Shown here: piece by piece, positions 7,356-54,224 of the stretch | Position numbering within the stretch: position 1 is the stretch's first letter | Layout of the letters: the number at the start of each line of letters is the position of its first letter | From: Deltaproteobacteria bacterium | Lineage (GTDB): Bacteria; Myxococcota_A; UBA9160; PR03 | Assembly (NCBI GenBank): GCA_035063765.1 | Contig: JAPSFT010000009.1 | Span: 62,001-126,000, forward strand | Direction of reading: 5' to 3' | DNA: 64,000 bases | The notes under the pieces: model-generated | What the model was told of the DNA's origin: nothing | Seen by the model: the letters and a program-made list of their open reading frames with translations, nothing else | The model's database searches: none | Position numbers and translations under genes: made by a program

Positions 7356-8897
7356 TCAGGCCTCCGCTACGAGCTCGACGCGGGGGAAGAGCGGGGCGCC
7401 CTTGCGCACCGGCGTGCCGGCCACGACGGCGCCGTCCGCGCCGGCGCCGACGCGCGCGGCGATCTCGGCCGCGGCGGCGGGCAGGAAGGGCGCCAGCAGC
7501 GCGGAGAGCCGCCCGAGCGCCAGACAGGCGTGGTGCAGCGTCGTGCGCGCCTGCGGCAGCGTGGCCGGGTCCCGGGCGCCCTTCCACGGCGCGCGCGCAT
7601 CGACGTAGCGGTTGACCGCGCTCGCGTACTCCTGGATCGCCGCGAGCGCGAGGTGCGGCTGGACGGCCTCGAGCGCCGCGTCGACCCGCACCCGCGCCGC
7701 ATCGGCCCCCGCCACGACCGCCAGGTCCGCGTCGCCCGCCGGCCCGGCCTCGGGCAGCACCCCGCCGCAGAGCTTCTCGACGAGGTTGAGCGCGCGGCTC
7801 ACCAGGTTGCCGAGGTTGTTGGCGAGGTCGGCGTTCACGCGCTCGACGAGCGCCTCCTCCGAGAACCCCGCGTCGAGGCCGAAGCTCATCTCGCGGAGCA
7901 GGAACCAGCGGAAGGGCTCGAAGCCGTAGCGCTCGCGCATCGCGAGCGGCGAGACCATGTTGCCGAGGCTCTTCGACACCTTGCGGTCGTCGACGTTCCA
8001 GTAGCCGTGCACGTGCAGGCGCCGGTAGGGTGCGAGGCCGATCGCGCGCAGCATGATCGGCCAGAAGATCGCATGCGGCTTCAGGATGTCCTTGCCGATC
8101 AGGTGCTCGGCGGCAGCCCAGCGCGCCGTGAAGGCGGGCGGCTGCGCGTCGGCCGGTCGCGTGCCGTCGAAGCCGGCCCCGGTCAGGTAGGAGAGGAGGG
8201 CGTCGAACCAGACGTAGCAGACGTGGTCGCGGTCGAAGGGCAGCTCGACGCCCCAGTCGAGACGGGTCTTCGGGCGCGAGATCGAGAGGTCGCCGAGGCC
8301 CGACTCGTCGCGCAGCATCGCGAGCGCCTCGTTGCGGTAGCGCTCGGGGCGGATGAGCTCGGGGTTGCGCTCGATCTGCTCGCGCAGCCAGGCGAACTCG
8401 CGGCTCATCCGGAAGAAGTAGTTGACCTCGCGGCGGCGCTCGGGGACGCGCTCGTGGTCGCGGCAGCGGCCGTCCTCCAGGTCGCGCTCGGTCAGGAAGC
8501 GTTCGCAGCCGACGCAGTAGAGGCCTTCGTACTCGCGCTGCTCGATCCAGCCCGCGTCGTGGACGCGCTGGAGCACGGCCTGGACGTTGCGGACGTGGGC
8601 CGGCTCGGTGGTGCGGACGAAGCGGGAGGGCGCGATGTCGAGCTCGGACCAGGTACGCTGGAAGGCCTCCGAGACGCCCGCCGTGAACACGGCCGGCGAC
8701 ACCCCGCGCGCCCGCGCGGCCTCCACCATCTTCTCGCCGTGCTCGTCGGTTCCCGACACCGAGAATGCGTCGTCTCCACGCTGGCGGCGCCAGCGCACCA
8801 GCACGTCGGCCACCACGGTCGTGTAGGTGTGGCCGATGTGAGGCGCGGCGTTCGCGTAGTAGATCGGCGTGGTGACGAAGACCGTCCGGCCGCTCAT
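7356..8897 (-). CDS. metG: methionyl-tRNA synthetase
   Basis: This 513-residue class I synthetase charges tRNA-Met in the cytoplasm. The HIGH motif is at residues 20-23 ('APHIGHTYT') and the KMSKS-type loop is 'KVSKSLGN' near residue 305. A zinc-knuckle segment 'CVGCERF...GRC' lies in the connective peptide (short, Thermus-like MetG2 form). The protein ends after the anticodon-binding helices and lacks the C-terminal Trbp111-like domain of some bacteria. The start ATG 8897 overlaps the holB stop as ATGA. Confidence 0.97.
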   Translation of the reverse strand: MSGRTVFVTTPIYYANAAPHIGHTYTTVVADVLVRWRRQRGDDAFSVSGTDEHGEKMVEAARARGVSPAVFTAGVSEAFQRTWSELDIAPSRFVRTTEPAHVRNVQAVLQRVHDAGWIEQREYEGLYCVGCERFLTERDLEDGRCRDHERVPERRREVNYFFRMSREFAWLREQIERNPELIRPERYRNEALAMLRDESGLGDLSISRPKTRLDWGVELPFDRDHVCYVWFDALLSYLTGAGFDGTRPADAQPPAFTARWAAAEHLIGKDILKPHAIFWPIMLRAIGLAPYRRLHVHGYWNVDDRKVSKSLGNMVSPLAMRERYGFEPFRWFLLREMSFGLDAGFSEEALVERVNADLANNLGNLVSRALNLVEKLCGGVLPEAGPAGDADLAVVAGADAARVRVDAALEAVQPHLALAAIQEYASAVNRYVDARAPWKGARDPATLPQARTTLHHACLALGRLSALLAPFLPAAAAEIAARVGAGADGAVVAGTPVRKGAPLFPRVELVAEA

Positions 8898-9772
8898 CGC
8901 AGCGCCCCGTGCAGCGCGAGCAGCGCGCGTTCCGCCACCATCTGCGGGTTCGCGTTGCGCTGCGCGAGCGACTGGCGGCAGGCCTGGAGCTCGGCGAAGG
9001 CCGCGAGCTCGCGCTCGAGGTCGCCCGCGCCGGCGCGCGCGGCCACCCGCTCGCGCAGCCAGAGCGACGCGGTGTGGAGGAGCCCGGTGACGGCCTGCGC
9101 CGCCTCGGCGCGGGCTCCCCGGTACTCCTCCGCCCAGTCGAGGAGCTCCGGGACGCGGAGCGCCCCGGCGCCGGCCAGGCGCTCGGCGAGGGCACGCGTC
9201 TCGGGGTCGTCGGCGAGCCGGGCGGGGGGCGTCGCGAAGGGGACGCGCTGGCAGCGCGAGCGCACGGTCGCGAGCAGGCCGCTCGCGGTGGCGGCCACCA
9301 GCACCAGCACGGTGCGGGGCGGCGGCTCCTCGAGCAGGCGCAGGAGCGCGTTCTGGGCCTCCTGGTTCAGCCACTCGGCGTCGGCGACCACCGCGGCCCG
9401 CCAGCCGTCCTCGCGGGCGGCGCGCAGCCGCAGCCGCTCCTGGAGCGCGCGCACCTGTCCGATCCGCACGCGCGTGTCGTCGGCGCCGCGCTCCACCCAG
9501 AGCAGGTCGGGATGGTCCCCGACGTGCCGGTAGAGGGGGCCCTTCCTGCCGGCGCCGTCGATCGCGATCGGCTCGCCCGCGGCCGAGCGCCGGCACGAGG
9601 CGCAGGCCTCGCAGGGGCGCTCGCGCCCAGCCGCCTCGCACGCGAGCCCGCGCACGAAGCGCAGCGCCGCCTCGCGCGGCGCGTCCCCGGGACCCGAGAG
9701 CAGGTAGGCCGAGTGCACCCGCCCCGAGGCGAGCGCACGGCGCAGCAGGTCGTCGGCAGGGGAGCGCTCCAT
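8894..9772 (-). CDS. holB: DNA polymerase III delta' subunit
   Basis: This 292-residue clamp-loader stator subunit takes part in loading the sliding clamp at the replication fork. The P-loop region is degenerate ('LLSGPGDAPREAAL', without the Lys of a working Walker A), as is usual for delta'. It keeps a four-Cys zinc module ('CEACASCRR' plus upstream Cys), the 'ALLRLLEEPPP' segment and the 'VRSRCQR' SRC sensor motif. tmk, a common upstream neighbour, is absent; here the upstream gene is spt, 48 bases away on the same strand. Confidence 0.93.
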   Translation of the reverse strand: MERSPADDLLRRALASGRVHSAYLLSGPGDAPREAALRFVRGLACEAAGRERPCEACASCRRSAAGEPIAIDGAGRKGPLYRHVGDHPDLLWVERGADDTRVRIGQVRALQERLRLRAAREDGWRAAVVADAEWLNQEAQNALLRLLEEPPPRTVLVLVAATASGLLATVRSRCQRVPFATPPARLADDPETRALAERLAGAGALRVPELLDWAEEYRGARAEAAQAVTGLLHTASLWLRERVAARAGAGDLERELAAFAELQACRQSLAQRNANPQMVAERALLALHGALR

Positions 9773-9820: not shown

Positions 9821-11005
9821 TCAGCGGACGCCCAGCTCGCGCCCGACCCGGGCGATCGCGTCGAGCGCGCGATCGAGGTGCGCCCGCTGGTGGGTGGCCA
9901 TGTAGGAGGTGCGGACCATCGCGCGGTCCTCGGGCACGCCCGGCGAGATCACGCAGTTGACGAAGACGCCCTCCTCGTGGAGTCGCCGCACCATCCGGAG
10001 CGCGCGCATGTCGTCGCCCACGATGATCGGGATCACCGGCGACTCCGAGTCGCCGGTGTCGAAGCCGAGCCCCGCGAGCTCGCGCTTCATGTAGGCGGTG
10101 ACCTCCCAGAGCTGCTTGCGCCGCTCGGGCTCACGCTCGACGATCGCGAGCGCCGCGAGCGCCGCGGCGGCCGAGGCGGGCGGCAGGGCGGCGGAGAAGA
10201 CCGCCGAGCGCGCCGTGTGTCGCACGTAGTCGATCACCGTCGCGTCGCCGGCCACGAAGCCGCCGATCGCCGCCAGCGACTTCGAGAAGGTTCCCATCAC
10301 GAGGTCGACCTCGCCCTCGACGCCGAAGTGCTCGGCCGTGCCGCGGCCCGACGCGCCGAGGACGCCGAGGCCGTGCGCGTCGTCCACCATCAGGCGTGCG
10401 CCGAAGCGCTGCTTCAGCGCCACGATCCCGGGCAGCGGCGCGAGGTCGCCCTCCATCGAGTAGACGCCGTCCACCACGATCAGCCGGCCGCGGTCCTCGG
10501 GCACCGCCGCGAGCTTCGCCTCGAGGCTCGCCAGGTCGTTGTGCCGGAACTTGTAGAGCTTGCCGAAGCCGAGCCGGCAGCCGTCGAGGATGCAGGCGTG
10601 GTCGAGCGCGTCGAGGATCGCGACGTCGTGCCGGCCGAGCAGGCAGGAGAGCGTGCCGAGGTTCACCTGGAAGCCGGTCGAGAAGGTGACGGCGGCCTCG
10701 CGGTGCATGAAGGCGGCGAGCCGCGCCTCGAGCTCCTCGTGCAGGTCGAGCGAGCCGTTGAGCAGGCGCGAGCCCGCGCAGCCGGTGCCGTAGCGGGCGA
10801 GGGCGGCGGCCGCGGCCTCCTTCACCTCCGGGTGGTTCGTGAGGCCCAGGTAGTTGTTGGAGCCGAGCATCACGAGCCGGCGGCCGTCGGCGGTCGTGAC
10901 CTCGGGGTCCTGGGCCGAGGCGAGCGGCCGGTAGTAGGAGTAGACGTCGGCCGCGCGCAGGCTGCGCGCCTGGCCGTAGTCCCGGCACTTGTCGAAGACG
11001 TCCAA
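9821..11005 (-). CDS. spt: serine palmitoyltransferase-like alpha-oxoamine synthase
   Basis: This 394-residue PLP enzyme of the alpha-oxoamine synthase family (with BioF, KBL and HemA) condenses an amino acid with an acyl-CoA. I favour serine palmitoyltransferase, the first step of sphingolipid synthesis. The reasons are the N-terminal 'KCRDYGQ' and 'SYYRPL', the 'GSNNYLGLT' motif, 'YGTGCAGSR', 'DDAHGLGVLG' (PLP-ring Asp) and the PLP-Lys motif 'TFSKSLAAIGGF' (about residue 240), all closest to bacterial SPTs. A KDSR-like reductase diverges from it. The likely start is TTG 11005, seven bases after GGGAGGGA; no ATG or GTG gives a better fit. A BioF or KBL role is the alternative. Confidence 0.8.
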   Translation of the reverse strand: MDVFDKCRDYGQARSLRAADVYSYYRPLASAQDPEVTTADGRRLVMLGSNNYLGLTNHPEVKEAAAAALARYGTGCAGSRLLNGSLDLHEELEARLAAFMHREAAVTFSTGFQVNLGTLSCLLGRHDVAILDALDHACILDGCRLGFGKLYKFRHNDLASLEAKLAAVPEDRGRLIVVDGVYSMEGDLAPLPGIVALKQRFGARLMVDDAHGLGVLGASGRGTAEHFGVEGEVDLVMGTFSKSLAAIGGFVAGDATVIDYVRHTARSAVFSAALPPASAAAALAALAIVEREPERRKQLWEVTAYMKRELAGLGFDTGDSESPVIPIIVGDDMRALRMVRRLHEEGVFVNCVISPGVPEDRAMVRTSYMATHQRAHLDRALDAIARVGRELGVR

Positions 11006-11122
11006 CCCGCGTCCCTCCCGGGGGTGGCCGCATTGTAACGAACAGCGGGGTGGGTCTCGCGCCTTCCGGGACCGTTCTCGCGCGCAGTGGCCCCCGCGGG
11101 CGAAGCCCGGCATCGTTGGGCG

Positions 11123-11938
11123 ATGCCTTCCTCCGCCTTCCGCGACCGGCGCGCGCTCGTGACCGGGGGCTCGAGCGGGATCGGACGCGCGCTCGCGCTC
11201 GCGCTCGCGCGCGCCGGCGCGCACGTCGCGATCGTGGCGCGCCGCGAGGCGCCGCTGCGCGAGGCCGAAGGGGCGCTGCGTGCCGCCGCGCCCGGCGCCG
11301 TCCAGCGCTTCACGGCGATCGCCGCCGACGTGGCCGAGCCCGAGGCGGCGGCGCGCGCCGTCGCCGAGGCGGTGGCGGCGCTCGGCGGGCTCGACCTCGT
11401 CGTCAACAACGCGGGCGTGGCCCGTGCGCTGCGCTTCGAGGACACGCCGCCCGCCGAGTTCCAGCGCCTCGTCGCGGTGAACTACCTCGGCGCCGTCCAC
11501 GTCGTGCGCGCGGCGCTGCCGCACCTCGCGGCGGGTGCGCGGATCGCCAACGTCTCGTCGCTGGCCGGCGCGCTCGCCATCTACGGCTACGCGGCCTACG
11601 CGCCGAGCAAGTTCGCGCTGACCGCCTTCTCGGAGGTGCTGCGCCAGGAGCTGCGCCCGCGCGGGATCGCGGTCTCCGTGCTCCTGCCGCCGGACACCGA
11701 CACGCCGCAGCTCGCCGAGGAGAACCGCGAGAAGCCGGCCGCGACGCGCGCGCTCGCCGGCAACGTCCCGGTGCTCGCGCCCGAGGCGGTGGCCGACGCG
11801 CTGCTCGAGGGGCTCGCGAGCGGGCGGGCCGTGATCGTCCCCGGCTGGCGCGCGCGCGCCACCCTGTGGGCCGCCCGGCTCGCGCCGGGCCTCGTGCGGC
11901 GCATCATCGACCGCGAGATCGCCCGCGCCGGCGGGTAG
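11123..11938 (+). CDS. SDR reductase resembling 3-ketodihydrosphingosine reductase
   Basis: This 271-residue short-chain dehydrogenase has the cofactor motif 'VTGGSSGIG' (residues 13-21), 'NNAG' near 94 and the catalytic 'YAPSK' near 159-163. 'PPDTDTPQLAEENREKP' near residue 189 is strikingly like the signature of eukaryotic 3-ketodihydrosphingosine reductase (KDSR/TSC10 type), which reduces the product of serine palmitoyltransferase. The gene diverges from the spt-like gene across 117 bases, so both may make sphinganine. ATG 11123 gives a normal SDR N-terminus; the upstream in-frame GTG 11087 is less likely. Without the neighbour I would call it a generic SDR. Confidence 0.8.
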   Translation: MPSSAFRDRRALVTGGSSGIGRALALALARAGAHVAIVARREAPLREAEGALRAAAPGAVQRFTAIAADVAEPEAAARAVAEAVAALGGLDLVVNNAGVARALRFEDTPPAEFQRLVAVNYLGAVHVVRAALPHLAAGARIANVSSLAGALAIYGYAAYAPSKFALTAFSEVLRQELRPRGIAVSVLLPPDTDTPQLAEENREKPAATRALAGNVPVLAPEAVADALLEGLASGRAVIVPGWRARATLWAARLAPGLVRRIIDREIARAGG

Positions 11939-12045: not shown

Positions 12046-12447
12046 ATGGCTCTGTTCGGGAATCGCGGCGACGAGGGGACGACCCAGGAGTCCGCCGGCC
12101 TGGCACCGGCGACGACGGCGAGCCGGCAGGCGCTCAGCGCCTTCATCGACCAGGGCTCCGAGTTCGAGGGCAAGCTCAGCTTCAAGGACACCGTCCGGAT
12201 CGACGGCTGCTTCCGCGGCGAGATCGCGAGCGAGAACACGCTCGTGGTCGGCGAGAGCGGCGAGATCTTCGCGACCGTGCGCTCGCGCACGGTGGTGATC
12301 GCCGGCGCCGTGACGGGCGACGTGGTCGCCAGCGACCGCCTGGTGCTCCAGAAGAGCGCGCGCGTCGAAGGCGACGTCGAGGCCGGCTCGCTCCAGATGG
12401 AGGACGGCGCGGTGCTGAACGGCCGGATCTCGATGAAGAAGGGCTAG
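12046..12447 (+). CDS. bactofilin
   Basis: This 133-residue polymer-forming cytoskeletal protein has a short disordered start, then a beta-helix core with the bactofilin pattern 'FEGKLSFKDTVRIDGCFRG' and later 'VVGESGEIFATV' and 'VVIAGAVTGDVVASDRLVL'. Bactofilins self-assemble without nucleotide into filaments at the membrane and help in cell shape, stalk or pilus positioning. ATG 12046 is preceded by a G-rich ribosome-binding site. It lies 107 bases behind the KDSR-like gene. No M23 peptidase partner is adjacent. Confidence 0.92.
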   Translation: MALFGNRGDEGTTQESAGLAPATTASRQALSAFIDQGSEFEGKLSFKDTVRIDGCFRGEIASENTLVVGESGEIFATVRSRTVVIAGAVTGDVVASDRLVLQKSARVEGDVEAGSLQMEDGAVLNGRISMKKG

Positions 12448-35297: not shown

Positions 35298-36524
35298 ATG
35301 GCCATCGACTTCCGCTTCCCCGAAGAGATCGAGCTCGTCCGCACCAAGGTCCGCGAGTTCTGCGAGCAGGTCGTGCGGCCGGCGGAGAAGGAGATCGCGG
35401 CGCACGAGGGCGACCGCAAGGTGCTCGTCGAGCAGGTGATCCGGATGCGCAAGGCCGCCCAGGAGTGGGGCCTGTGGCTGCCGCACATGCCCGAGGAGTG
35501 GGGCGGGATGGGGCTCGGGCACGTCGCGATGGCGGCGGTGTCGGCGGAGGCGGCGAAGACCCGCTTCGGGCCCTTCGCGCTGAACGCGCAGGCGCCCGAC
35601 GAGGGCAACATGCACACGCTCCTGCACTGGGGCACGCCGGCGCAGAAGGAGAAGTACCTGCGGCCGCTCTGCCAGGGCCGCGCCCGCTCGTGCTTCGCGA
35701 TGACCGAGCCCGAGGTGGCGGGCTCCGACCCGACCCTGATCCAGACCCGCGCCGTCCCGGACGGCGACGACTGGGTGATCGAGGGCCACAAGTGGTTCAT
35801 CTCGGGCGCGCACGGCGCACAGTTCGCGATCCTGATCGCGCGCACCGAGGAGGACCCCGCCGTGCCGCAGGCGGTGACCAGCGCCTTCCTCGTCGACCTG
35901 CCGAGCCCCGGCTGGGAGTTCGTGCGCGACATCCACACCATGAGCGGAAGCCACAACCACTGCGAGGTGCGGATCCACGGGCTGCGCGTGCCCGGCGCGA
36001 ACCTCCTCGGCGGGCGCGGCGACGGGCACCGCCTCGGCCAGTACCGGCTCGGCCCCGCGCGGCTCGCGCACTGCATGCGCTGGATCGGCCAGGCCGAGAT
36101 GGCGCTCGACATGACCATCGACCGCGCCATGAAGCGCTACGCGCACGGCTCGCTGCTCGGCGAGAAGCAGGGCATCCAGTGGATGATCGCCGACAGCACC
36201 CTGGAGCTGTACCAGTGCAAGCTCATGGTGCTCCACGCCGCCTACAAGGTGGACCGCGGCGAGGACTTCAAGAGCGAGGTCTCGATGGCCAAGCACTTCG
36301 TCGCGGGCGCGCTCAACCGCATCGTCGACCGCGCGATCCAGGTCCACGGCGCGCTCGGCTACTCGAGCGACACGCCGCTCGCCCAGATGGCCACCCAGGC
36401 ACGCTGGGCACGCTTCGCCGACGGCGCCGACGAGGTCCACCAGTGGCGGATCGCCCAGCGCGCGATCGAGGCCTACACCAAGACCGGCAGCGTCGGACCG
36501 GCGGCGGGGGATCTGCCGATCTAG
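35298..36524 (+). CDS. acyl-CoA dehydrogenase
   Basis: This 408-residue FAD enzyme catalyses alpha,beta-dehydrogenation of acyl-CoA. It has 'MTEPEVAGSDPTLIQTRA', 'WVIEGHKWFISGA', 'HTMSGSHNHCEVRIHGLRVP' and 'QVHGALGYSSDTPLAQMATQARWARFADGADEVH', most like the ACAD10/11-type branch. ATG 35298 is preceded by GGAG. It stands alone between pilus genes and the accessory region. Chain-length preference is unknown. Confidence 0.92.
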   Translation: MAIDFRFPEEIELVRTKVREFCEQVVRPAEKEIAAHEGDRKVLVEQVIRMRKAAQEWGLWLPHMPEEWGGMGLGHVAMAAVSAEAAKTRFGPFALNAQAPDEGNMHTLLHWGTPAQKEKYLRPLCQGRARSCFAMTEPEVAGSDPTLIQTRAVPDGDDWVIEGHKWFISGAHGAQFAILIARTEEDPAVPQAVTSAFLVDLPSPGWEFVRDIHTMSGSHNHCEVRIHGLRVPGANLLGGRGDGHRLGQYRLGPARLAHCMRWIGQAEMALDMTIDRAMKRYAHGSLLGEKQGIQWMIADSTLELYQCKLMVLHAAYKVDRGEDFKSEVSMAKHFVAGALNRIVDRAIQVHGALGYSSDTPLAQMATQARWARFADGADEVHQWRIAQRAIEAYTKTGSVGPAAGDLPI

Positions 36525-36604
36525 CTAGGGCGCGAGGAGCTCGCGAGCGGTCCCTGGCCCCCCAGCGGGCGCATTCGAATGTCGGGTCTCGCAGGCGCCG
36601 CCCG

Positions 36605-38647
36605 TCAGGTGATCCCTGGCTCGAGGAGCGGCAGACGCCGTATCACCTCCGTCATCTCCGCGAGCAGCCCAGAGGGCGTGCCGTGGCCGGTGACGACGAG
36701 CTTCACCTGGGCACGCGTCGCGCCCACGTAGAAGCGAGCACGCGACTCGCGGTCGGTGCCGAAGCCCTGCGCGTTGACGAGGAAGACGACCGGTGCGTCG
36801 TAGCCCTTGGCGGCATGGACGGTCGAGAGTGTCAGCCGCCCCTCCTCGAACACGAGACGATCCCTGTCCCTGCGGCTCTTCGGTACCCGGCAAGCCACTC
36901 CGGCCTCCTCGAGACCCGCCCGGAACGGCTCGAGCGCCTGCCAGCCGTAGTCGGACTGGATGAGGATCTCCTCGGGACGCACCTGCTCGCAGTGCAGGAG
37001 GTCCCGGACTCCGGTGACGACCTCGTTCACCTCTTCGGCCACGTTCTCGAGAACGTGCAGGAGCGGAGCGGCACCTGGTCGTTGAGCAAACTCGATGACG
37101 ACACCATTCTCGGTCTCGAGGAACTGATCGCTGTCGCGTAGCGACTGGACGTCCGCAAATCCTCGCATGCCGACACGATCGGACTCGGCGGAAGCCGTAC
37201 CGAGCAGGACGTTGAAGGCGAAGGTCGCGATCGGTCTCGAGGTGCGCCGGCTCCTATTCATTGCAACGGTGCGCCCGCCTGTCACGTGAATGCCCAGGTC
37301 ACGCCAGACCGGCCGGGGGCGCCCATAGAGGTTCTGGGCATCGTCGTAGAAGAAGGCGATGCCCCGCTCCTGCGTCTTCGGGTGGAGGCGGCTGAGACGA
37401 TGGAGGATGCGCAGCGCTTGCGGGTGGAGGTCCTGCGCCTCGTCCACGAAGACGAAGTCGAAGAGCAGCTCGTGCTCGAGCGCCTCGTCTCCATCGAGCA
37501 GTTCTTCGACTTGGTCGAAGACGAAGGGGAGGCGCTCCTCGTCGGGGGTCTTCTTGCAGGAGGGCACCTCGAGACCCCACTCCTTCCCCATGCGGGTGAG
37601 AAGACCCTCGAAGTGGGAGAAGGTCAGGTCCGAGGCGTCCAACTCGAGTCGCGCCATGCTTGCAAACGCATGGACGTCTCGGCAGAGCAGCGGGACGAGG
37701 GCGCGGTTGAAGCAGGTCACGAGGATCCGCGGGCGAGGGGCGCCAGGCTCTGCGTGAGCATGGCGGGATTCCAACAGGTCGACGAGGCCCTTGGCCAGGA
37801 GGATCGACTTGCCACTGCCCGCCACGCCGCGCACGAGCGTCGGGTGCCCGTCGAGGGGACGCAGGGCGATCCTGCGCTGGTCTGGATAGAGACAGTTGCC
37901 GTCCTTGAGCCGGTCGATCTCTTCCCCGACGCCAGCCGATCGACGCTCCTTCCTGAGATCGCGGAGATTCGGCGGCAGAAGGCCGAGCGTGCGGTCGAGG
38001 AGCTCGATCGACCGGGATGAGGTGGGAAGCCGTCGTCGAGAACCTTCGCAGCCGCGTCGAGCCGCTCGTGCTAGCGCGCTGCGCAAGGCCTCAGGCTCCA
38101 ACGTCTCTTCGAAGAGGAGATGGTCGTAGGGGATCTGCTGGTCCGCGAAGGGACAGGCAGCCAAGTCCTTCTGGGATACGCGAGGAAGGACCACGGCAAA
38201 CGAGACCGGGGGATATGGGATCTCGAGCTTCCGACTCTGCTCCTCCAGCTTCCTGAGCAGGAATCTCAAGCTGCCGTCCACCTGTTCGAACACCGTCCTA
38301 TGACGATTCCCGTAACGGACCGTGAGGCCTCGACCGCTCCAGCCGAGCTCACGGACCGGATGCCCCTTCACCTCGATGACAACGGCCCCGATCGTCGGGT
38401 TTGCCACCAAGATGTCGGCTGTCTCGTAGACGGGGCTTCGCGGATCGCGCACGCTGTAGTAGACCGAGGTGGTCTTCTCGTTGCAATACGCCTCGAGGGT
38501 CGCAGTCAACACCTGCAACTCGCACTCGACACCACCATGTGATGGATCGATGCTCGCGTGCGATGGCCCCAGGAAGCGATTCCCTCGCTGGCAGAAGATC
38601 TCCCTGGCTTTGGCGAACCTGCGGAGCACTTCGGTGTAGTTTGCCAT
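36605..38647 (-). CDS. NERD-domain superfamily I (UvrD-like) helicase
   Basis: This 680-residue protein has an N-terminal nuclease-related NERD domain ('YETADILVANPTIGAVVIEVKG'), then a UvrD-type motor. Walker A is 'LVRGVAGSGKSILLAKGL' (near 273), motif II 'FDFVFVDEAQDLHP' (near 402), a later motif is 'SRRTSRPIATFAFNVL', and motif V/VI is 'STVHAAKGYDAPVVFLVNA' with 'FYVGATRAQVKLVVTG'. NERD-helicase proteins occur in defence loci such as Nhi-like systems. Its composition is less GC-rich than neighbours, marking the edge of the accessory region. It is the first gene on the 5' side of the tmRNA. Confidence 0.88.
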   Translation of the reverse strand: MANYTEVLRRFAKAREIFCQRGNRFLGPSHASIDPSHGGVECELQVLTATLEAYCNEKTTSVYYSVRDPRSPVYETADILVANPTIGAVVIEVKGHPVRELGWSGRGLTVRYGNRHRTVFEQVDGSLRFLLRKLEEQSRKLEIPYPPVSFAVVLPRVSQKDLAACPFADQQIPYDHLLFEETLEPEALRSALARAARRGCEGSRRRLPTSSRSIELLDRTLGLLPPNLRDLRKERRSAGVGEEIDRLKDGNCLYPDQRRIALRPLDGHPTLVRGVAGSGKSILLAKGLVDLLESRHAHAEPGAPRPRILVTCFNRALVPLLCRDVHAFASMARLELDASDLTFSHFEGLLTRMGKEWGLEVPSCKKTPDEERLPFVFDQVEELLDGDEALEHELLFDFVFVDEAQDLHPQALRILHRLSRLHPKTQERGIAFFYDDAQNLYGRPRPVWRDLGIHVTGGRTVAMNRSRRTSRPIATFAFNVLLGTASAESDRVGMRGFADVQSLRDSDQFLETENGVVIEFAQRPGAAPLLHVLENVAEEVNEVVTGVRDLLHCEQVRPEEILIQSDYGWQALEPFRAGLEEAGVACRVPKSRRDRDRLVFEEGRLTLSTVHAAKGYDAPVVFLVNAQGFGTDRESRARFYVGATRAQVKLVVTGHGTPSGLLAEMTEVIRRLPLLEPGIT

Positions 38648-39103
38648 CGATCCTCCAAGGGAGACCTCGAGGATCGGTCGACGTGGCGTCGTGTCTTAGA
38701 TTCTGCCTACAAGAGATGCGATCTTCGCCGGGCTTTCGTTGCCGCTTTCCTACGGTGCGCGAGCCGTGCTCACGCAGAACGTTGGCCAGCGCGCGAAGGC
38801 TGGCGTTGTCGTGGCAGTCCGCGAGCCGACGGATGCGGTCGTCGTCCGCGAAGCAGGCCGCCTCCTGGCGCTCGAAGAAGGGGTCCGGGACACCGGGCGC
38901 GGGGTTGGCCGCCTTCCCGCAGGCCCAAGCGGAGTGGCCCGTCGAACAGGCGCGCCTCGCACGAGGCGAAGCGCCGATCGAGGCCGTCGAGCACACGCCG
39001 GAAGCAGGCCAGGATCGAGGGGGTGGGGTGCGGCCCGAGGGGCAGGGCCGTGTCGGGTTGACATCCCCTCGACCGCCCATAGCCTCTCGCGGTTCCCGAG
39101 AAA
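38648..39103. other. 456-base gap with decayed minus-strand coding traces
   Basis: No intact gene. On the minus strand, two frames read like natural protein when joined: 'VLDGLDRRFASCEARLFDGPLRL' in one (about 38890-38990), then 'FFERQEAACFADDDRIRRLADCHDNASLRALANVLREHG' in another (about 38770-38880). This suggests a gene broken by a frameshift. I do not recognise the family. The left end carries the helicase start region. Confidence 0.35.
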
Positions 39104-40549
<1,446 letters not shown>

Positions 40550-40550
40550 G

Positions 40551-40754
40551 CTAAGCCTTCCTCCGATCTCCACTCGTGGAGACGTCCCGATCGTCCTCGC
40601 GGGCGGCTTGTTCCATCAGGCGCACGTACTCCCGAGCGAGGTCCTCGGCGATGTGGTCGAGGAGCGCTGCCACGGCGGGATCGATGGAGGCAGGCCGGGC
40701 GGGTCCTTCCCGGCTCGTCCTCACCTTCACGGCCGCCGTCTTCGATCGTGCCAC
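40551..40754 (-). CDS. small protein ahead of the recombinase
   Basis: This 67-residue protein starts at GTG 40754, which follows AGAGGAG; the longer ATG start at 40778 would sit inside the operator dyad and is less likely. The sequence has a basic start and a helix 'AVAALLDHIAEDLAREYVRLMEQAA'. Its stop is one base before the recombinase ATG, so it is co-transcribed. Unrecognised; small proteins in this place often assist or regulate the recombinase. Confidence 0.6.
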   Translation of the reverse strand: MARSKTAAVKVRTSREGPARPASIDPAVAALLDHIAEDLAREYVRLMEQAAREDDRDVSTSGDRRKA

Positions 40755-40763
40755 CGCTCCTCT

Positions 40764-40792
40764 AGAAATGATAGTCATTGTCTATCATTTCT
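40764..40792. promoter_or_regulatory. operator dyad 1 for the MerR-like regulator
   Basis: A perfect 11-bp inverted repeat AGAAATGATAG / CTATCATTTCT around TCATTGT. Its core TGATAGTCATTGTCTATCA (40769-40787) recurs at 41400-41418 with only two changes. It lies between the regulator's 3' end and the start of the small gene plus recombinase, where it would control their transcription. Confidence 0.75.
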
Positions 40793-40803
40793 GGAGAGCA
40801 CTG

Positions 40804-41409
40804 TCAAACCTCGAGAGGGAGGTCCTGCGCGATGTGGGTGACGCTGATCTCGACCCGCGTGTGCCGGCTGCGTTCCGGCCCGCCGAAGTCATCTGCACCG
40901 GAGGCTCGGCCAGGGGGTGGCGCGGGCTTGACGAGCCTCAGCTTGGGTCGAGAGCCAGCGGCCGTCGTCCCTTCCTTCAAGCCATCCAAGTCGATCCCGC
41001 CGTAGACCTTCGGGGGTCCACCCGCAGCACCGAGCGTGAAGTAGAGGCGCCGCCCGTCACCGATCACCACGCGCAGGTCGGGCGCGTTCTTCGCCTGCAG
41101 GCTCTCGGGGAGCCGGAAGCCGCGGATCTCCCTTCCCACCGCAGCCTCGAAGGCCCGCATCACGTGAACCACCGCGCCGATCAGCGTGGCCGGAAGCTCC
41201 AGATCCCGCAGCCGCAACGCCACCGCCAACTCGAGCAGGTTCCGGCTCGAGAACCTCCGGCTGCTGCCTCGGCCCTCCGCGTCCTGGAGGTCGGGCTCCA
41301 CCACGCCCTTCTCGCACAGGTAGATCAGCCGGTGCTGCGGCTCGTCCAGGAGCCGCGCCGCCTCCGTCAGCGTCCAGTCGCCCGTTTCGTGCGCCATCGT
41401 GATAGGCAT
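40804..41409 (-). CDS. MerR-like HTH regulator
   Basis: This protein of 201 residues (197 if ATG 41397 is used) has an N-terminal winged HTH of MerR style: 'WTLTEAARLLDEPQHRLIYLCEKGVV' then 'SSRRFSSRNLLELAVALRLRDLELP'. The rest has no clear ligand domain; a middle part 'LRVVIGDGRRLYFTLGA' looks like beta-strands. Its start codon lies in operator dyad 2 and dyad 1 is just downstream, so it probably regulates itself and the recombinase unit. No ribosome-binding site is evident; translation could be leaderless. Confidence 0.75.
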   Translation of the reverse strand: MPITMAHETGDWTLTEAARLLDEPQHRLIYLCEKGVVEPDLQDAEGRGSSRRFSSRNLLELAVALRLRDLELPATLIGAVVHVMRAFEAAVGREIRGFRLPESLQAKNAPDLRVVIGDGRRLYFTLGAAGGPPKVYGGIDLDGLKEGTTAAGSRPKLRLVKPAPPPGRASGADDFGGPERSRHTRVEISVTHIAQDLPLEV

Positions 41410-41418
41410 CGTCTATCA
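41400..41418. promoter_or_regulatory. operator dyad 2 at the regulator start
   Basis: TGATAGGCATCGTCTATCA differs from dyad 1 at 2 of 19 positions and keeps the 6-bp arms TGATAG/CTATCA with a 7-base spacer. It covers the start codon of the MerR-like gene (ATG 41409) and lies upstream of the divergent defence operon, so autoregulation is likely. Confidence 0.75.
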
Positions 41419-41428
41419 TGAGGCTCGC

Positions 41429-41468
41429 CCGGTCAAGGCCACCCCGCGGCGGAGCGGCCCTTGACCGG
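41429..41468. promoter_or_regulatory. second inverted repeat and possible promoter of the defence operon
   Basis: CCGGTCAAGG (41429-41438) and its exact reverse complement CCTTGACCGG (41459-41468) are 20 bases apart. The right arm contains TTGACC, a fair -35 box; TCTACT 17 bases further on could be the -10. It could be the promoter/operator of the 41542-52335 operon. Confidence 0.45.
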
Positions 41469-41541
41469 AAACGCCTGGGGATGTCTACTTTCGTCTGCAC
41501 TGACCGACTTTCGTTGGCAGGGGTGCGGGAGGTGCGGCTAA

Positions 41542-41796
41542 GTGGCGCCGGACGAGCGCTGGGTCGGCGTCGACGACGTGGCCGCGCATCTCGGCGTGGG
41601 CAAGGACTCCATCTACCGCTGGGTCGAGAACCGCGGTCTTCCTGCCCGCAAGGTGGGGCGCCTCCTCCGCTTCAGGCTCTCGGAGGTGGACGCTTGGGTC
41701 GAGGCGGGGGAGGGCGAGCGACCCGCCGAGCCTCCGCCTCCCGCGCCGGCCCCTAGGCGCGGCAGGCGCAGCAAGAAGAAGGACGGCGGGCGATGA
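41542..41796 (+). CDS. excisionase-type HTH protein
   Basis: This 84-residue protein has an HTH_17/excisionase motif: '[47 protein letters not shown]'. A Pro-rich linker and a basic tail (RRGRRSKKK) follow. GTG 41542 is behind GGGAGG. It is the first gene of the restriction operon and may control it or act as a recombination directionality factor for the island. Confidence 0.8.
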
Positions 41797-41855
41797 GCCA
41801 GGCGTCGCGGTGTCGGGCCAGGGAACGAACCCACGATCGGAAGGCGGGGTAGGGG

Positions 41856-44675
<2,820 letters not shown>

Positions 44676-44679
<4 letters not shown>

Positions 44680-45746
44680 AGCGTGAGGCGAAACTGCTCC
44701 TGGCCAAGGCGAGCGACTCGCTGGTCCTGGCCATCGAGATTTTCAACCGCCCTCATGATCGGGGTCGAGTCAGCAGCACACTGATCCAGCTCGATCATGG
44801 CTTCGAGATGCTGATGAAGGCCGCGATCCTGCACCGAGGAGGACGCATCCGTGAGAAGCGGGCCAAGGAGACAATCGGCTTCGACGCCTGCGTACGACGG
44901 TCGCTCAGCGACGGCAAGATCAGGTACCTGACCGAGGAGCAGGCCCTCGTACTTCAGACGCTCAACGGCCTGCGCGATGCCGCACAGCATCACTTGCTCG
45001 ATATCTCCGAAGGTCAGCTCTACGTGCACGTGCAGTCGGGCGTCACGCTGTTCCGTGACCTCTTGAAGAACGTGTTCGACCAGGACTTTGCAGGCGAATT
45101 GCCGGCACGCGTGCTCCCGGTCTCGACGGCGCCCCCCACGGACCTAGCGACCCTGTTTGAATCCGAGGTTGCCGAGATCAAGAAGCTCTTGAAGCCAGGT
45201 CGACGTCGTCACGTTGAAGCCTTGGCCCGACTTCGTCCGCTGGCGATCCTGGACGCGACGATCCAGGGCGAGAAGGGCCAGCCCAGCGATGGAGACCTAC
45301 GACGGATCGGCAAAGAGGTTTTGCAGGGTCGCGCATGGGAAAAGGTGTTCCGCGGTGCAGTGGCGGTTGAGATCGCGGCGGATGGCACGGGACCGAGCCT
45401 GTCTCTGCGATTGTCGAAGAAGGAGGGCATTCCCATTCAGCTGGTGGCCGAGGGAACCCCAGGTGCGTCGGTCGTCGCCGTAAAGCGCGTCGATGAACTG
45501 GGGTTCTACAGTCTCGGCGCGAAGCAGCTCGCCGAGAAGGTTGGATTGACGATGCCGAAGGCGGTCGCGGTGGTTGATTATCTCGGTCTTCGCGACAAGG
45601 CTGAGTGCTACAAGGAAATCAAGATCGGCAAGGCTGTGTTCAAGCGCTATTCCCCGAGGGCCATCGACGAGGTCAAGCAAGCACTGCAGCATGAGAGCGC
45701 CGATAAGATCTGGGCGAAGCGCAATGGAGGTGGCCGCAAGCAATGA
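44676..45746 (+). CDS. DUF3644 protein inside the type I operon
   Basis: This 356-residue protein has the DUF3644 pattern near the start: '[39 protein letters not shown]', '[10 protein letters not shown]', '[38 protein letters not shown]'. The C-terminal part has a winged-helix look ('[37 protein letters not shown]'). It overlaps hsdS and hsdR by four bases each, so it is made with the restriction complex. The domain is common in defence islands; its activity is not established. Confidence 0.85.
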
Positions 45747-48700
45747 GCGGGCACTTCACCGAATCAACCGTCGAGCAGGCCGCCCTCGCCTGGCTGGAGG
45801 CCGGCGGCTGGCAGGTCGCCCACGGCCCCGTCATCGCCCCCGACATGCCCGCCGCCGAGCGCGCCGACTACGGCGAGGTGGTCCTCGCCCACCGGCTGCG
45901 CGACGCGCTCACGCGCCTCAATCCCGACCTCCCTACCGAAGCGCTGGAGGACGCCTTCCGCAGACTGTCGCGTCCCGAAGGCGCGGAGCTGATCCAGCGC
46001 AACCGGGCACTGCACCGGCTGCTGGTGGACGGTGTGACGGTCGAGTACCGCGACGCCGACGGTGCGATCCGTGGCGCGCAGGCGCGCGTGATCGGATTCG
46101 AGGACGTACAGGCCAACGACTGGCTGGCGGTCAACCAGTTCACGGTGGTCGAGAACAGGCACACGCGCCGACCGGACGTCGTGCTGTTCGTCAACGGCCT
46201 GCCACTCGCGGTGCTGGAGCTCAAGAACGCCGCCAGCGAGGATGCCACGATCTGGACCGCCTTCCAGCAGCTTCAGACCTACAAGTCCGAGCTGCCGGCA
46301 CTCTTCGCGACCAACGCCGTGCTGGTCGTGTCGGACGGTGTCGAAGCCCGCGTCGGGACGCTCTCGGCCGGTCAGGAGTGGTTCAAGCCCTGGCGCACGA
46401 TATCGGGCGAGGCGGTGGCCGACGCGCACGTGCCCGAGCTCCAGGTCGTGATCGAGGGGTTGCTGGCGCCGCGGCGCTTCCTGGATCTGGTGCGTGACTT
46501 CATCGTGTTCGAGGACGACGGCGGCCGCGTCGTCAAGAAGATGGCGGGCTACCACCAGTTCCACGCCGTGCAGGTGGCGGTGGGCGAGACGCTGCGGGCC
46601 GCCGAGCTGGCGCGCGCGGATCACGTGGCCGAGGGCGGCGGGCGCTACGAGGCGGGGCGCAGGCCGGGCGGCAAGCCCGGCGACCGGCGCGTCGGCGTGG
46701 TCTGGCACACCCAGGGCTCGGGAAAGAGCCTGACCATGGCCTTCTACGCCGGCCGCATCGTTCGCGAGCCGGCGATGGAGAACCCGACGATCGTGGTGCT
46801 CACCGATCGCAACGACCTCGACGACCAGCTCTTCGGCACCTTCTCACGCTGCCAGGACCTGCTGCGACAGCCGCCGGTGCAGGCCGAGAGCCGCGCGCAT
46901 CTGCGCGAGCTGCTCGCGGTGCAGGCGGGCGGCGTGGTCTTCACGACCATCCACAAGTTCTTCCCCGAGGAGAAAGGCGACCGGCACCCGACACTCTCGG
47001 AGCGCCGCAACATCGTGGTGATCGCCGACGAGGCGCACCGCAGTCAGTACGACTTCATCGACGGCTACGCGCGCCACATGCGCGATGCCCTACCGCACGC
47101 CTCGTTCATCGGCTTCACCGGCACGCCGATCGAGCTGCAGGACGCCAACACGCGCGCCGTGTTCGGCGGCTACATCAGCGTCTACGACATCCAGCGTGCG
47201 GTGGAGGACGGCGCCACGGTGCCGATCTACTACGAGAGCCGGCTTGCGAAGCTGGCGCTCGATGAGGCGGAACGGCCGAGGATCGACCCCGACTTCGAGG
47301 AAGCCACCGAGGGCGAGGAGGTCGAGCGCAAGGAGAAGCTCAAGACCAAGTGGGCGCAGCTCGAAGCCGTGGTGGGCTCACAGAAGCGGCTGGAGATCGT
47401 GGCGCGCGACATCGTCGAGCACTTCGAGAAGCGGCTGGACGCGAGGGACGGCAAGGCCATGGTCGTGTGCATGAGCCGGCGCATCTGCGTCGAGCTGTAC
47501 GACGAGATCGTCAAGCTGCGGCCCGATTGGGCGGGCGACGAGGACGGCGTTTCCGATGAGCGGGGCGCCATCAAGGTCGTCATGACCGGCTCGGCCTCCG
47601 ATCCGGTCGAGTGGCAGAAGCACATCCGCAACAAGCCCCGGCGCGAGGCGCTGGCCAACCGTTTCCGCGACCCCGCGGATCCGCTGCGCATGGTGCTCGT
47701 GCGCGACATGTGGCTCACCGGCTTCGACGCGCCGAGCCTGCACACGATGTACGTGGACAAGCCGATGCGCGGGCATGGGCTGATGCAGGCGATCGCGCGC
47801 GTCAACCGGGTGTTCGAGCGCAAGCTCGGCGGGCTCGTCGTGGACTATCTGGGGCTGGCGCACGAGCTGAAGCGGGCGCTCGCGACCTACACCGAGAGTG
47901 GCGGCACCGGGCGCACGGCCCTCGACCAGGACGAAGCCGTGGCCGTGATGCTGGAGAAGTACGAGGTCTGCTGCGGGCTCTTCCACGGCTTCGACCGTGG
48001 CAAGTGGACCACCGGCACACCGCAGGAGCGGCTCGGCCTGCTGCCGCCGGCCCAGGAGCACATCCTCGCCCAGGAGAACGGCAAGGACCGCTGCCTGCGT
48101 GCCGTCCGTGAGCTGTCGCAGGCCTTCGCGCTGGCGGTGCCGCACGAGGAGGCGCTGCGCATCCGCGACGACGTGTCGTTCTTCCAGGCCGTGGCTGCCG
48201 TGCTCGCCAAGCGCGCGCCCGGCGAGGCCCGGCCGGAGGAGGACCTCGATCACGCGGTCCGCCAGATCATCTCCCGCGCGGTGGCCCCCGAAGGCGTCGT
48301 GGACATCTTCGCCGCGGCCGGGCTCGAGAAGCCCGAGATCTCGATCCTGTCGGACGAGTTCCTCGCCGAGGTGCGCGGCATGCCGCAGCGCAACCTGGCG
48401 GTCGAGCTGCTGCAGAAGCTGCTCAAGGGAGAGCTGGCCACGCGGCGACGAAAGAACGTCGTCCAGGCCCGTTCCTTCGCCGAGATGCTGGAGCAGACCA
48501 TCCGGCGCTACCAGAACCGCGCGATCGAGGCGGCGCAGGTGATCGAGGAGCTGATCCAGCTCGCGAAGGATATGCGGGCGGCGAACGCGCGCGGCGAGAC
48601 GCTCGGTCTCTCGGAAGACGAGCTCGCCTTCTACGACGCCCTGGAGACGAACGACAGCGCGGTGAAGGTGCTCGGCGACGAGACCCTGCGCGGCATCGCC

Positions 48701-48895
48701 CGCGAGCTGGTCGAGACCGTGCGGAACAATGTGACCATCGACTGGACGCTGCGGGAGAACGTGCGTGCCCAGCTCCGGGTGCTCGTCAAGCGCATCCTCC
48801 GCAAGCACGGATACCCGCCGGACAAGCAGGAGAAGGCAACGCAGACCGTGCTCGAGCAGGCGGCGTTGCTGTCCGAAGTCTGGGCCACGGCGTGA
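45743..48895 (+). CDS. hsdR: type I restriction endonuclease HsdR
   Basis: This 1050-residue motor-nuclease has the PD-(D/E)xK core '[21 protein letters not shown]' (Asp145, Glu159, Lys161). Walker A is '[13 protein letters not shown]' near residue 320, the DEAH box is '[13 protein letters not shown]', motif III-like 'GFTGTPIE' and motif VI '[10 protein letters not shown]' follow, and a C-terminal helical domain contacts the methylase core. It translocates and cuts unmodified DNA. The gene looks intact. Confidence 0.97.
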
Positions 48896-48905
48896 GCTCG
48901 TGGGC

Positions 48906-50999
48906 ATGATCGAGCGGGGCGTGCGCTACGACGCGGAGCGCGCCCTGGAGCTGCTCCGCCTGGGATCGGGGCGGCGCGATGCCGTGTTCCGCGAAGGGCA
49001 GGGGGAGGCGATCCGTCACATTGTCGAAGGCGCCGGGCGGCTGCTCGTGGTGCAGAAGACGGGCTGGGGGAAGAGCTTCGTCTACTTTATCGCGACGAAG
49101 CTGCTGCGTGAAGCTGGTCTGGGCCCTGCGATCCTCATCTCGCCGCTGCTGGCCCTGATGCGCAACCAGATCCTCGCCGCCGAGCGCATGGGCGTACGCG
49201 CCCGGACCATCCACTCCGGCAATCAGGAGGAATGGGAGGAGGTCGAGCGCGCGATCCGGCGCGACGAAGTGGACATCCTGCTCGTCTCTCCCGAGCGGCT
49301 CGCCAACGAGCGCTTCCGCGAAGAGGTCTTGGCGCAGGTCGCCGATCGGGTTGCCCTGCTCGTGATCGACGAGGCCCACTGCATCTCCGATTGGGGGCAC
49401 GACTTCCGCCCGCACTACCGGCTGCTCGAGCGCATCGTGGGCACCCTCCCGTCGAGCCTGCGGCTGCTCGCGACGACCGCCACCGCGAACGACCGGGTGA
49501 TGGAGGATCTGGCGGCCGTGCTCGGGCCCGACCTGGCGATCTCTCGGGGAGACCTTCAGCGCCCCTCGCTTGCGCTCCAGACGATCCGCCTGCCGAGCCA
49601 GGCCGAGCGTCTGGCCTGGCTCGCGGAGCACGTGCCGGCGCTTCCGGGCAACGGCGTCATCTACACGCTGACTGTTCGCGACGCGGGGCAGGTGGCCGCA
49701 TGGCTCCGGTCGCGCGGGATCGATGTCGAGGCATACACCGGCGACACGGGCGATCGCCGTGCCGAGCTCGAGCAGGCGCTCCTCGAGAACCGCGTGAAGG
49801 CGCTGGTGGCGACGACTGCGCTGGGCATGGGATTCGACAAGCCTGACCTGGCTTTCGTCATCCACTACCAGACGCCGGGCTCGGTGGTGGCCTACTACCA
49901 GCAGGTGGGCCGCGCGGGCCGCGCACTCGATGCGGCCTACGGCGTGCTGCTGTCCGGCGAGGAGGAGACCGACATCACCGACTACTTCATCGAGAGCGCG
50001 TTCCCCACGCCCGAAGAGGTCGGTGCGGTGCTCGAGGCACTCGAGGCGGCGCCGCAGGGTCTTTCGGTGCGGGAGCTGATGGGCGAGGTCAATGTCAGCT
50101 TTGGGCGGATCCAGAAGACCATCGACCTGCTCTCGCTGGAGTCGCCCGCCCCGATCGCCAAGCAGGGCGCGAAGTGGCAGCTCACCGCCGCGAACCTGAG
50201 CGATGCCTTCTGGGCGCGCGCCGAGCGGCTCACGGCGCTGCGACGGGCGGAGCAGGGCCACATGCAGGAGTACGTGACCCTGGGTTCTGGGCACATGGAG
50301 TTCTTGATCCGGGCGCTCGACGGACCGCCCGGCGAGCTCTCACAGCCGGTTCTGCCGCCCCTGCCAACCACGGTAGATCCGGGGCTCGTCCGCGATGCGA
50401 TCGAGTTCCTGCGACGTACGAGCCTGCCCATCGAGCCGCGGAAGCAGTGGCCGGCCGGAGGTCTGCCGCGCTACGGCGTCTCCGGTCGCATCCCGAAGGA
50501 GCTCCAGGCCCAGCCGGGCAAGGCGCTCTGCGTGTGGGGCGATGCCGGCTGGGGGGCCTCGGTCCGGCTCGGGAAGTATCATGACGGTCGGTTCTCGGAT
50601 GATCTCGTTGAGGCTTGTCGGCAGCTCGTCGAGCAATGGGGCCCGGACCCGGCCCCGACGTGGGTGACTTGCGTGGCCTCACGGCGCCACCCTGACCTCG
50701 TGCCGGATTTCGCGCGACGGCTCGCCGGTGCACTCGGGTTTGCGTTCGAGTCGGTCCTGGTGAGGACGGATGACCGCCCGGAGCAGAAAACCATGGCCAA
50801 CAGCACCCAGCAGGCACGGAACGTTGATGGGTCACTGGAGGTTCGCGGCCGGGTGCGGGGCGAGCCCGTGCTGCTGGTAGACGACATGGTGGATTCGCGG
50901 TGGACCCTCACCGTGGCCGCCTGGCTGCTGCGCTCGCATGAGAGCGGCGTGGTCTGGCCGCTTGCCCTGGCCCAGACGGGATCGGGCTCCAATGACTGA
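48906..50999 (+). CDS. RecQ-like helicase fused to a phosphoribosyltransferase-like domain
   Basis: This 697-residue protein has a RecQ motor with Walker A 'KTGWGKS' (51-57), '[19 protein letters not shown]', '[12 protein letters not shown]', '[13 protein letters not shown]' and '[13 protein letters not shown]'. Then comes a winged-helix-like middle, and at the end a PRTase-type domain with the PRPP loop '[14 protein letters not shown]' (about 660-675). RecQ's usual zinc-binding and HRDC domains are not evident. The next gene, overlapping by eight bases, is DprA-like. PRTase plus DprA is the ShosT/ShosA pairing of a known anti-phage toxin-antitoxin-like system; here a helicase is joined to the PRTase. 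Confidence 0.87.
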
Positions 51000-52335
51000 C
51001 GCGCTCTCGCCGAACACGAAGGCGATCTTGCTGCTGACGGCCCCGTTGATCACCGGGCGCAGCAAGAAGTCCAGCGATCTCCTCACACCGGGCGAGTACA
51101 AGAAGCTCGCCAAGCACCTGCTCGAGCTGGGAGCGAAGCCCGCCGATTTTCTGGCCCCTGCAGCCGACCAGCTCCTCGGCGATTGCCACCGCGTGATCGA
51201 CAAGGCCCGACTCGAGCGCCTGCTGGCCCGGGGCTTCCTCCTGAGCCAGGCTGTCGAACGCTGGCATGCCCGGGCGATCTGGGTGGTGAGCCGGGCCGAC
51301 GGCACGTACCCACAGAGACTGAAGGCGCGTCTGCGCGAGAATGCTCCGGCCGTTCTCTACGGCTGCGGAGACAGGAAGCTCCTGGAGAGCGGTGGTCTGG
51401 CTGTCGTGGGCTCGCGCAACGTCGACGACGCACTGATCGAGTACACGCAGGAGATCGGCCGGCTCGCGGCGTCGGCCGGGCGAACGCTGGTTTCCGGGGG
51501 CGCCCGGGGCATCGACCAGGCGGCCATGCGCGGTGCCCTGGAAACGGGCGGCAGGGTGACGGGCGTGCTCGCGGACAGCCTCGAGAAGACAGCCATGCAG
51601 CGAGAACACCGGAATATGCTGCTGGAGGATCAGCTCGTCCTGGTCTCTCCCTATGACCCGAGTGCGGGGTTCAACGTCGGCCATGCGATGCAACGCAACA
51701 AGCTGATCTACGCCCTGGCCGATGCCGCTCTGGTCGTGAGCGCAGACCGCGGCAAGGGCGGCACGTGGGCCGGTGCGATCGAGCAGCTCGAGACGCTGCA
51801 CCTGGTGCCCGTCTTCGTGCGCACGACAGCGGGATCCTCCGCCGGGCTCGATGCGCTTGCTGAGAAGGGGGCGCTGGCTTGGCCGGAGCCGGTCGATGCC
51901 GATGGTCTGGCCGCCGCGATCGCGACGCCAGCCCCCGAGCACAGGCCTCCGGCGGACCAGGGGCAGCTCTCCTTCCCGCCGCCTCGGGATGGCGCGGGGG
52001 AGGTCCGAGAAGCGGGGACTCCCGCTTCCGTGTCTCCAGCGAGCTTTCCTCCAGCGGACCAACGCGAGCTCTTGGCTGCCGATGAGCTGTTCTCGACTGT
52101 GCGTTCGCTGGTCGTTCGGCTCGTGCGCGGACCCACGAAGGCAGCCGAGATCGCCCGCGGCCTGGGAGTCACCGGACCTCAGGCCCAGAAATGGCTGAAG
52201 CGTCTCGTGGAGGAAGGTGTGCTGGAGAAGAACAAGAAGGATGCGCGCTATTCGATCTCCCAGGCGCGTCTGTTCGAATCCGAGGGTGCGCGCGAGCCGG
52301 CCGCCAAGACCAAGCCTGCAGGAACAGGGGAGTGA
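50992..52335 (+). CDS. DprA/Smf-like protein with C-terminal winged helix
   Basis: This 447-residue protein has an N-terminal helical part and a Rossmann-like DprA/LOG domain ('[16 protein letters not shown]', '[23 protein letters not shown]', '[23 protein letters not shown]'). A low-complexity linker leads to a winged helix ('[33 protein letters not shown]'). Classic DprA loads RecA on incoming single strands. Here the operon context and the coupled RecQ-PRTase gene point to a defence role like ShosA rather than competence. Confidence 0.88.
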
Positions 52336-52423
52336 AGTCCGACACCACCGAGCCAGGCCTCGAGCGGTCGTTGCCGACCGGGAAGCGCAGGCGGGCAGGG
52401 GAGCGGCCCGCGCTGGCCTCCTT

Positions 52424-52624
52424 TCAGCGGCGAGCGGTCGCTCGAAGCCAACGAATCGCCTTGGCGACCGTCTTGTCGGTGACGCCGAGCCGGGCGGCGA
52501 TCACCGGGTCGGTCAAGCCAAGCTCGCGCAGTTGAAGAGCTTTCGAGGCGATGGCCTGGTCGACGGGCGGCTCCGAGGTCGCGACCAGCGCCACCTCGAA
52601 TGGCTGCGCCCCGGCGGTTCGAAT
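52424..52624 (-). pseudogene. C-terminal HTH fragment cut off by IS66
   Basis: An open frame from the left edge of the IS element to a TGA at 52424 reads 'PFEVALVATSEPPVDQAIASK' and then 'LGVTDKTVAKAIRWLR', a helix-turn-helix end. Such HTH tails occur at the C-termini of some recombinase/zinc-ribbon proteins, so it may be the relic of a second recombinase. The part that should continue on the other side of the IS was not found. Confidence 0.5.
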
Positions 52625-52697
52625 GTAACTGCTCGCCGCGCCCCGTCTCGACGCTCGGTGGTGCGCGGAGCAGCCTGTGCGCTCGATGGCGGTGGGA

Positions 52698-54215: not shown

Positions 54216-54224
54216 GGCGGCGAC

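Follow-up and report, generated by a model that had tools for sequence, protein, structure and literature searches.

Does a bacterium that carries an SPT-type synthase beside a KDSR-like reductase make sphingolipids in the order of steps used by eukaryotes? The pair that raises this question lies in a window of 64,000 nucleotides (the whole stretch of DNA analysed here) within contig C9 of a 4.4 Mb MAG, which comprises 57 contigs and is 96% complete. The initial annotation described an SPT-type synthase diverging from an SDR across 117 bases, and the gap between the two reading frames has exactly that length. The features of the locus are:

9821-11005, minus strand: SPT-type ORF, 394 aa, TTG start, stop codon at 9821-9823
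11006-11122: divergent intergenic region of 117 bases, read from the sequence; order common to four relatives (G001, G002, G005 and G025)
11123-11938, plus strand: classical SDR of KDSR type, 271 aa, ATG at 11123, stop at 11938
11165-11185, plus strand: cofactor-binding segment GGSSGIG, residues 15-21, invariant in 9 aligned rows
11597-11611, plus strand: catalytic Y159-x-x-x-K163 (YAPSK), Y and K invariant in 9 rows
11687-11737, plus strand: KDSR-type segment PPDTDTPQLAEENREKP, read from the sequence and compared with a presumed human KDSR sequence and with 8jat

The most likely start of the synthase is the TTG at 11005 (MDVFDKC...), as in its orthologues, and both promoters presumably lie in the gap at 11006-11122. 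On either side lie housekeeping genes, at 8894-9772 for a delta-type subunit of DNA polymerase III and at 12046-12447 for a bactofilin. Elsewhere in the window, the region 36000-54600 has a G+C content of 66-69%, against about 75% to its left, and holds a tmRNA (39104-39465), the HsdM (41856-43439) and HsdR (45743-48895) genes of a type I restriction system and, at 52698-54215, a transposase of the IS66 type. This region is probably a genomic island.

The synthase groups with SPTs

Searched against solved structures with phmmer, the synthase matched the SPT of S. multivorum (3a2b) with 447 bits and E. coli Kbl with 289 bits; the cysteate acyltransferase 28eh was also among its PDB matches (280 bits). 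With the NCBIfam equivalog model for Bacteroidota-type SPT (NF047600) it scored 543.6 bits, below the cut-off of 640, and it also missed the cut-offs of NF047599 (405 of 500 bits) and NF047603 (317.5 of 670 bits). We therefore file it as an SPT-clade enzyme and not as a member of those models. In a tree of 28 rows, the enzyme fell within a 22-row SPT clade (support 96/88), together with the SPTs of Sphingobacterium (3a2b), Parabacteroides, Prevotella, Roseomonas and Rubrobacter. Kbl, BioF and a second synthase of the same genome fell outside, so that the grouping with KBL/BioF named at the outset as contrary evidence was not seen. Of 97 related genomes, 56 carry a copy of the synthase that is at least 61% identical, at 57 places in all. 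An SPT-clade enzyme that is 52% identical is also found on a Bacillota plasmid, from Priestia megaterium (8004-9218), where methyltransferase and acyltransferase genes adjoin it.

The reductase belongs to the KDSR clade

The window SDR matches PF00106 with 168 bits and has both the GxxxGxG and the Y-x-x-x-K motifs of classical SDRs; its predicted structure (pLDDT 89.3) shows the classical SDR fold. General searches did not single out a KDSR. NCBIfam made no KDSR call, fold searches with the model gave many ties, with TSC10 absent among the matches listed, and in phmmer a clavulanate dehydrogenase ranked above TSC10; by profile, TSC10 (PDB 8jat) came at rank 6.

The initial annotation had recognised in the segment PPDTDTPQLAEENREKP the KDSR signature PPDTDTP-x-x-AEEN-x-x-KP, which is indeed present at 11687-11737. 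The same motif is kept, and aligns with PPDTDTPQLAEENREKP, in what we take to be the human KDSR sequence, and TSC10 has a partial match, PGF-x-x-ENRTKP, at the same place. The pattern PPD[TV]xTP occurred in only four of the 80 SDR loci kept from a named scan of public genomes (L121, L123, L126 and L127), and in none of 12 other translated SDR segments of the own genome, several of which end before that region. Judged from these counts, the segment match is more than chance.

A tree of 56 rows, for which the rows from the scan were picked by hand (18 of the 80 loci as a generic set, plus L121-L126; L128, a row with a stop, was left out), placed the window SDR in a clade of 17 rows with support 99/99. 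This clade holds the presumed human KDSR, fungal TSC10 (the 8jat segment) and SPT-adjacent bacterial SDRs, and leaves outside FabG, 12 other SDRs of the own genome and the generic SDRs. When the motif columns were removed, the clade was kept (90/88) with one extra row; in both trees the branching inside it was unresolved. The Prevotella record gave no SDR match, so that the tree contains no Bacteroides-type KDSR.

Ranking by score pointed the same way. Queried with the presumed human KDSR, 14 of the 15 bacterial rows of the clade scored above every generic SDR tested (the fifteenth, from G030, was not among the matches listed); the window SDR had 144 bits, the best generic SDR 112 and TSC10 110. 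Conversely, a profile of seven SPT-adjacent bacterial SDRs gave the presumed human KDSR 248 bits and the best generic SDR 197, with TSC10 at 132 bits, below many generic SDRs. Neither the trees nor the human KDSR ranking thus showed the grouping with generic fatty-acid SDRs that had been set as the outcome contrary to the annotation.

The pairing with SPT is conserved

With an E-value limit of 1e-42, an SDR match is present in 11 of the 97 related genomes. All five copies with at least 57% identity, in the own genome and in G001, G002, G005 and G025, stand divergent beside SPT; those of the four relatives are the closest orthologues of the window SDR. The SDR was absent near the other 25 of 30 SPT loci examined, within flanks of at most 1.5 kb, some of them ended by contig ends. 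Weaker SDR matches with KDSR-like segments were found in G007, G013, G030, G045, G057 and G092. Moreover, in two Chloroflexota contigs, Chloroflexi RBG_16_57_11 (L122) and Anaerolineales UBA6092 (L123), the SDR lies directly upstream of SPT in the same direction. A search of plasmids with the query P0002 gave no match at 1e-25. Two Roseomonas assemblies (L126 and L127) have a KDSR-type SDR and an SPT-like gene within 8 kb of each other; in L126 an ORF of 2,414 residues resembling a polyketide synthase stands between the two, an arrangement that calls to mind the PfSga cluster.

No match to the known bacterial ceramide synthase family in this genome

The bacterial ceramide synthase (bCerS) family was set by gene order: on a Rubrobacter plasmid, its member is a protein of GNAT type that neighbours SPT and a CerR of epimerase type. 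The family also occurs on a Roseomonas plasmid, and G092 has an SPT-GNAT-CerR trio. The family, known here from these three gene orders, would correspond to the bCerS of Caulobacter. Whole SPT-CerS-CerR-type sets are carried by plasmids of Rubrobacter radiotolerans (L048) and Roseomonas mucosa (L045), and the pathway may therefore be mobile. Another family, PF04339 (FemAB_like), had been considered first as the ceramide synthase and has one protein in the own genome (contig C28, 448 bits). It was dropped because the Rubrobacter and Roseomonas synthases belong to another GNAT family, with an hhalign probability of 0.4% between the two.

At E 1e-8, a 3-row bCerS profile was positive in 15 of the 97 relatives, including G003 of the same family as our organism, and gave no match in the own genome (a MAG that is 96% complete), G001, G002, G005 or G025. 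A single-sequence query also gave no match in the own genome. The initial annotation had seen no ceramide synthase in the window, in agreement with a 14-row bCerS profile, which gave no match there or across 70 kb of the genome's other contigs. PF03798 (Lag1, TLC domain) matched in none of the 97 genomes, and its controls were silent as well.

We considered whether KDSR and bCerS strictly exclude each other. Within the order, bCerS was found in none of the five KDSR genomes and in 12 of 51 other SPT genomes, a difference that is not significant (P 0.57), and Chloroflexota genomes that have the SPT-KDSR pair do carry bCerS homologues: a KDSR-type SDR and bCerS homologues occur in one genome in the Chloroflexota G097 and G098, and also in G099. 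We therefore do not claim strict exclusion. Another 25 genomes with both SPT and LptFG have neither bCerS nor a KDSR match at E 1e-42. Either KDSR is dispensable in most of the order, or distant KDSRs were missed; if ceramide is made in these genomes, the order must have an additional enzyme for N-acylation, or bCerS members so divergent that they score under the threshold.

Head-group and export genes lie on another contig

Contig C6 of the same genome codes for a fused LptF-LptG permease, beside a DAGK-domain gene, a metallophosphoesterase, ELM1-type genes and a nucleotidyl transferase. It thus holds the LptF/LptG, lipid kinase, nucleotidyl transferase and metallophosphoesterase genes of a phosphosphingolipid head-group and export cluster, and gene groups of C6 are common to the sphingolipid-type plasmid cluster of Roseomonas mucosa (L045). 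The stretch C6:1-34000, with its two ELM1-type genes, also has a sulfotransferase and a protein of 322 aa that has no Pfam match and by eye resembles a nucleotidyltransferase (FYGSC). In relatives G003 and G025, a fused LptF-LptG, a CDP-alcohol transferase and a nucleotidyl transferase lie beside SPT. G013 has the permease and the transferase beside SPT; elsewhere SPT lies near MlaA/MlaC. Fused LptFG is found in 50 of the 97 genomes, and within the order in 44 of 56 genomes with SPT against 6 of 23 without (Fisher P 2e-5, uncorrected for relatedness).

Caulobacter has LptF/LptG-type permease and head-group genes like the own genome (PMC11087976, PMC11324152), in a region comparable to this cluster (PMC11324152). 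Its CpgB, encoded among the ceramide phosphoglycerate genes, is described as a DAGK-type ceramide kinase (PMC10331486), to which the DAGK-domain gene beside LptFG on C6 is alike by domain. Unlike the two genes of Caulobacter, LptFG of C6 is fused, and no CDP-alcohol transferase was found in the C6 stretch.

A proposed pathway in the eukaryotic order

The two sequences, their family membership, their conserved pairing and the presence of head-group and export genes are observed. We consider it probable that the two gene products catalyse steps one and two of a sphingolipid pathway that runs as in eukaryotes, with N-acylation, addition of a head group by the C6 genes and export through LptFG to follow. 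The position of the SDR in the KDSR/TSC10 clade, together with its conserved pairing with SPT, makes SPT followed by KDSR the likely order of reactions. These data are the basis of the following inferences about substrates, order of steps, cofactor, N-acylation and end product. The SPT-type enzyme would condense L-serine with an acyl thioester to give 3-ketosphinganine. In the cytoplasm, the SDR would use NADPH to reduce this to sphinganine, which would then be N-acylated by an enzyme outside the known bacterial ceramide synthase family. The ceramide may be phosphorylated and given a head group by the C6 cluster, with its lipid-kinase-like, nucleotidyl transferase, metallophosphoesterase and glycosyltransferase-like genes, and the fused LptF-LptG permease would export the product.

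It is unlikely that N-acylation comes first, with the SDR reducing 3-keto-ceramide in the role of CerR. This order is backed in Caulobacter by enzyme localisation (PMC11087976), and the genomes of the two Chloroflexota and G099 that hold both a KDSR-type SDR and bCerS homologues agree with it; gene content therefore does not fix the order of steps. However, in the trees the SDR falls among reductases of the free base, CerR is of an epimerase-type family distinct from that of the SDR, and the KDSR genomes of the order gave no bCerS match. Slightly less probable again is an SPT relative that uses alanine, glycine or cysteate, with the SDR giving a deoxy-sphingoid or sulfonolipid base. The missed NF047600 cut-off and the match to the cysteate acyltransferase are in its favour, as is the proposal that the 1-deoxyceramides of the Black Sea may come from Desulfobacterota and Bacteroidota (PMC11334938). 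Yet the S. multivorum SPT scored far higher, the enzyme falls among SPTs in the tree, and a cluster of phosphosphingolipid type uses the C1 hydroxyl that serine supplies.

Very improbable, and already disfavoured, is a reading in which the SDR acts as a generic oxidoreductase that stands beside SPT by accident. Classical SDRs are abundant in the own genome (42 matches), and neither the fold search nor phmmer set TSC10 apart; the KDSR clade in the trees, the reciprocal ranking by the presumed human KDSR and the pairing with SPT in five genomes of the order and two Chloroflexota contigs all stand against it.

Relation to known systems

Eukaryotic KDSR and TSC10 share with the window SDR the classical SDR family, one clade, the PPDTDTP...EEN..KP segment, Y-x-x-x-K and GGSSGIG; identity to the presumed human KDSR is 38% over 229 residues. 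The window SDR differs in being bacterial and SPT-paired and in lacking a hydrophobic N-terminal stretch ahead of the Rossmann fold.

Bacterial KDSRs are not new in themselves, since activity is reported for BT_0972 (PMC9278070) and the function is proposed for PfSgaC (PMC12134224). BT_0972 of Bacteroides thetaiotaomicron is a bacterial SDR for the same proposed reaction, active in vitro and in E. coli; unlike the window SDR, it is not clustered with its SPT, and the report on it also mentions homologues in Bdellovibrio and Myxococcus (PMC9278070). In Pseudomonas fluorescens MYb115, the KDSR homologue PfSgaC is proposed beside an SPT-type enzyme, with a eukaryote-like step termed unusual in bacteria (PMC12134224). 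That cluster belongs to a polyketide-synthase pathway, whereas the window pair has no adjoining PKS. In the open-access literature we found no report of SPT-KDSR pairs in Chloroflexota or in the group of our organism.

The Caulobacter route through SPT, bCerS and CerR, as given in PMC11087976 and PMC11324152, begins with the same type of enzyme. It differs in that bCerS was not found in the own genome and the reductase beside SPT is a classical SDR, not an epimerase-type CerR; the contrast drawn with this route in the initial annotation is correct in the light of PMC11087976. The same source describes the order of the last two bacterial ceramide steps as disputed, and both orders are described in work on Prevotella copri (PMC10865984).

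The pair suggests that, in some bacteria, sphingolipid synthesis follows the eukaryotic order instead of the bacterial route that has been studied most. BT_0972, the one bacterial KDSR for which we found an assay, is a partial homologue and lies apart from SPT (PMC9278070). With its fixed place next to SPT in two phyla, the KDSR-clade enzyme offers a clean system for testing the eukaryotic order in bacteria, and the pair also directs attention to a ceramide synthase that is missing. The sphingolipid pathways of bacteria and eukaryotes have been described as convergent, and there is debate over where the eukaryotic one came from (PMC12872458), a question on which the shared KDSR clade bears. 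It is possible, although doubtful, that the order has seen an exchange in the later half of ceramide synthesis: some members would keep the bCerS type, whereas the family of our organism would use SPT, KDSR and a third type of ceramide synthase and feed the same phosphosphingolipid export line. If so, the bacterial SPT-KDSR pair and the first half of the pathway in eukaryotes would be homologous rather than only convergent.
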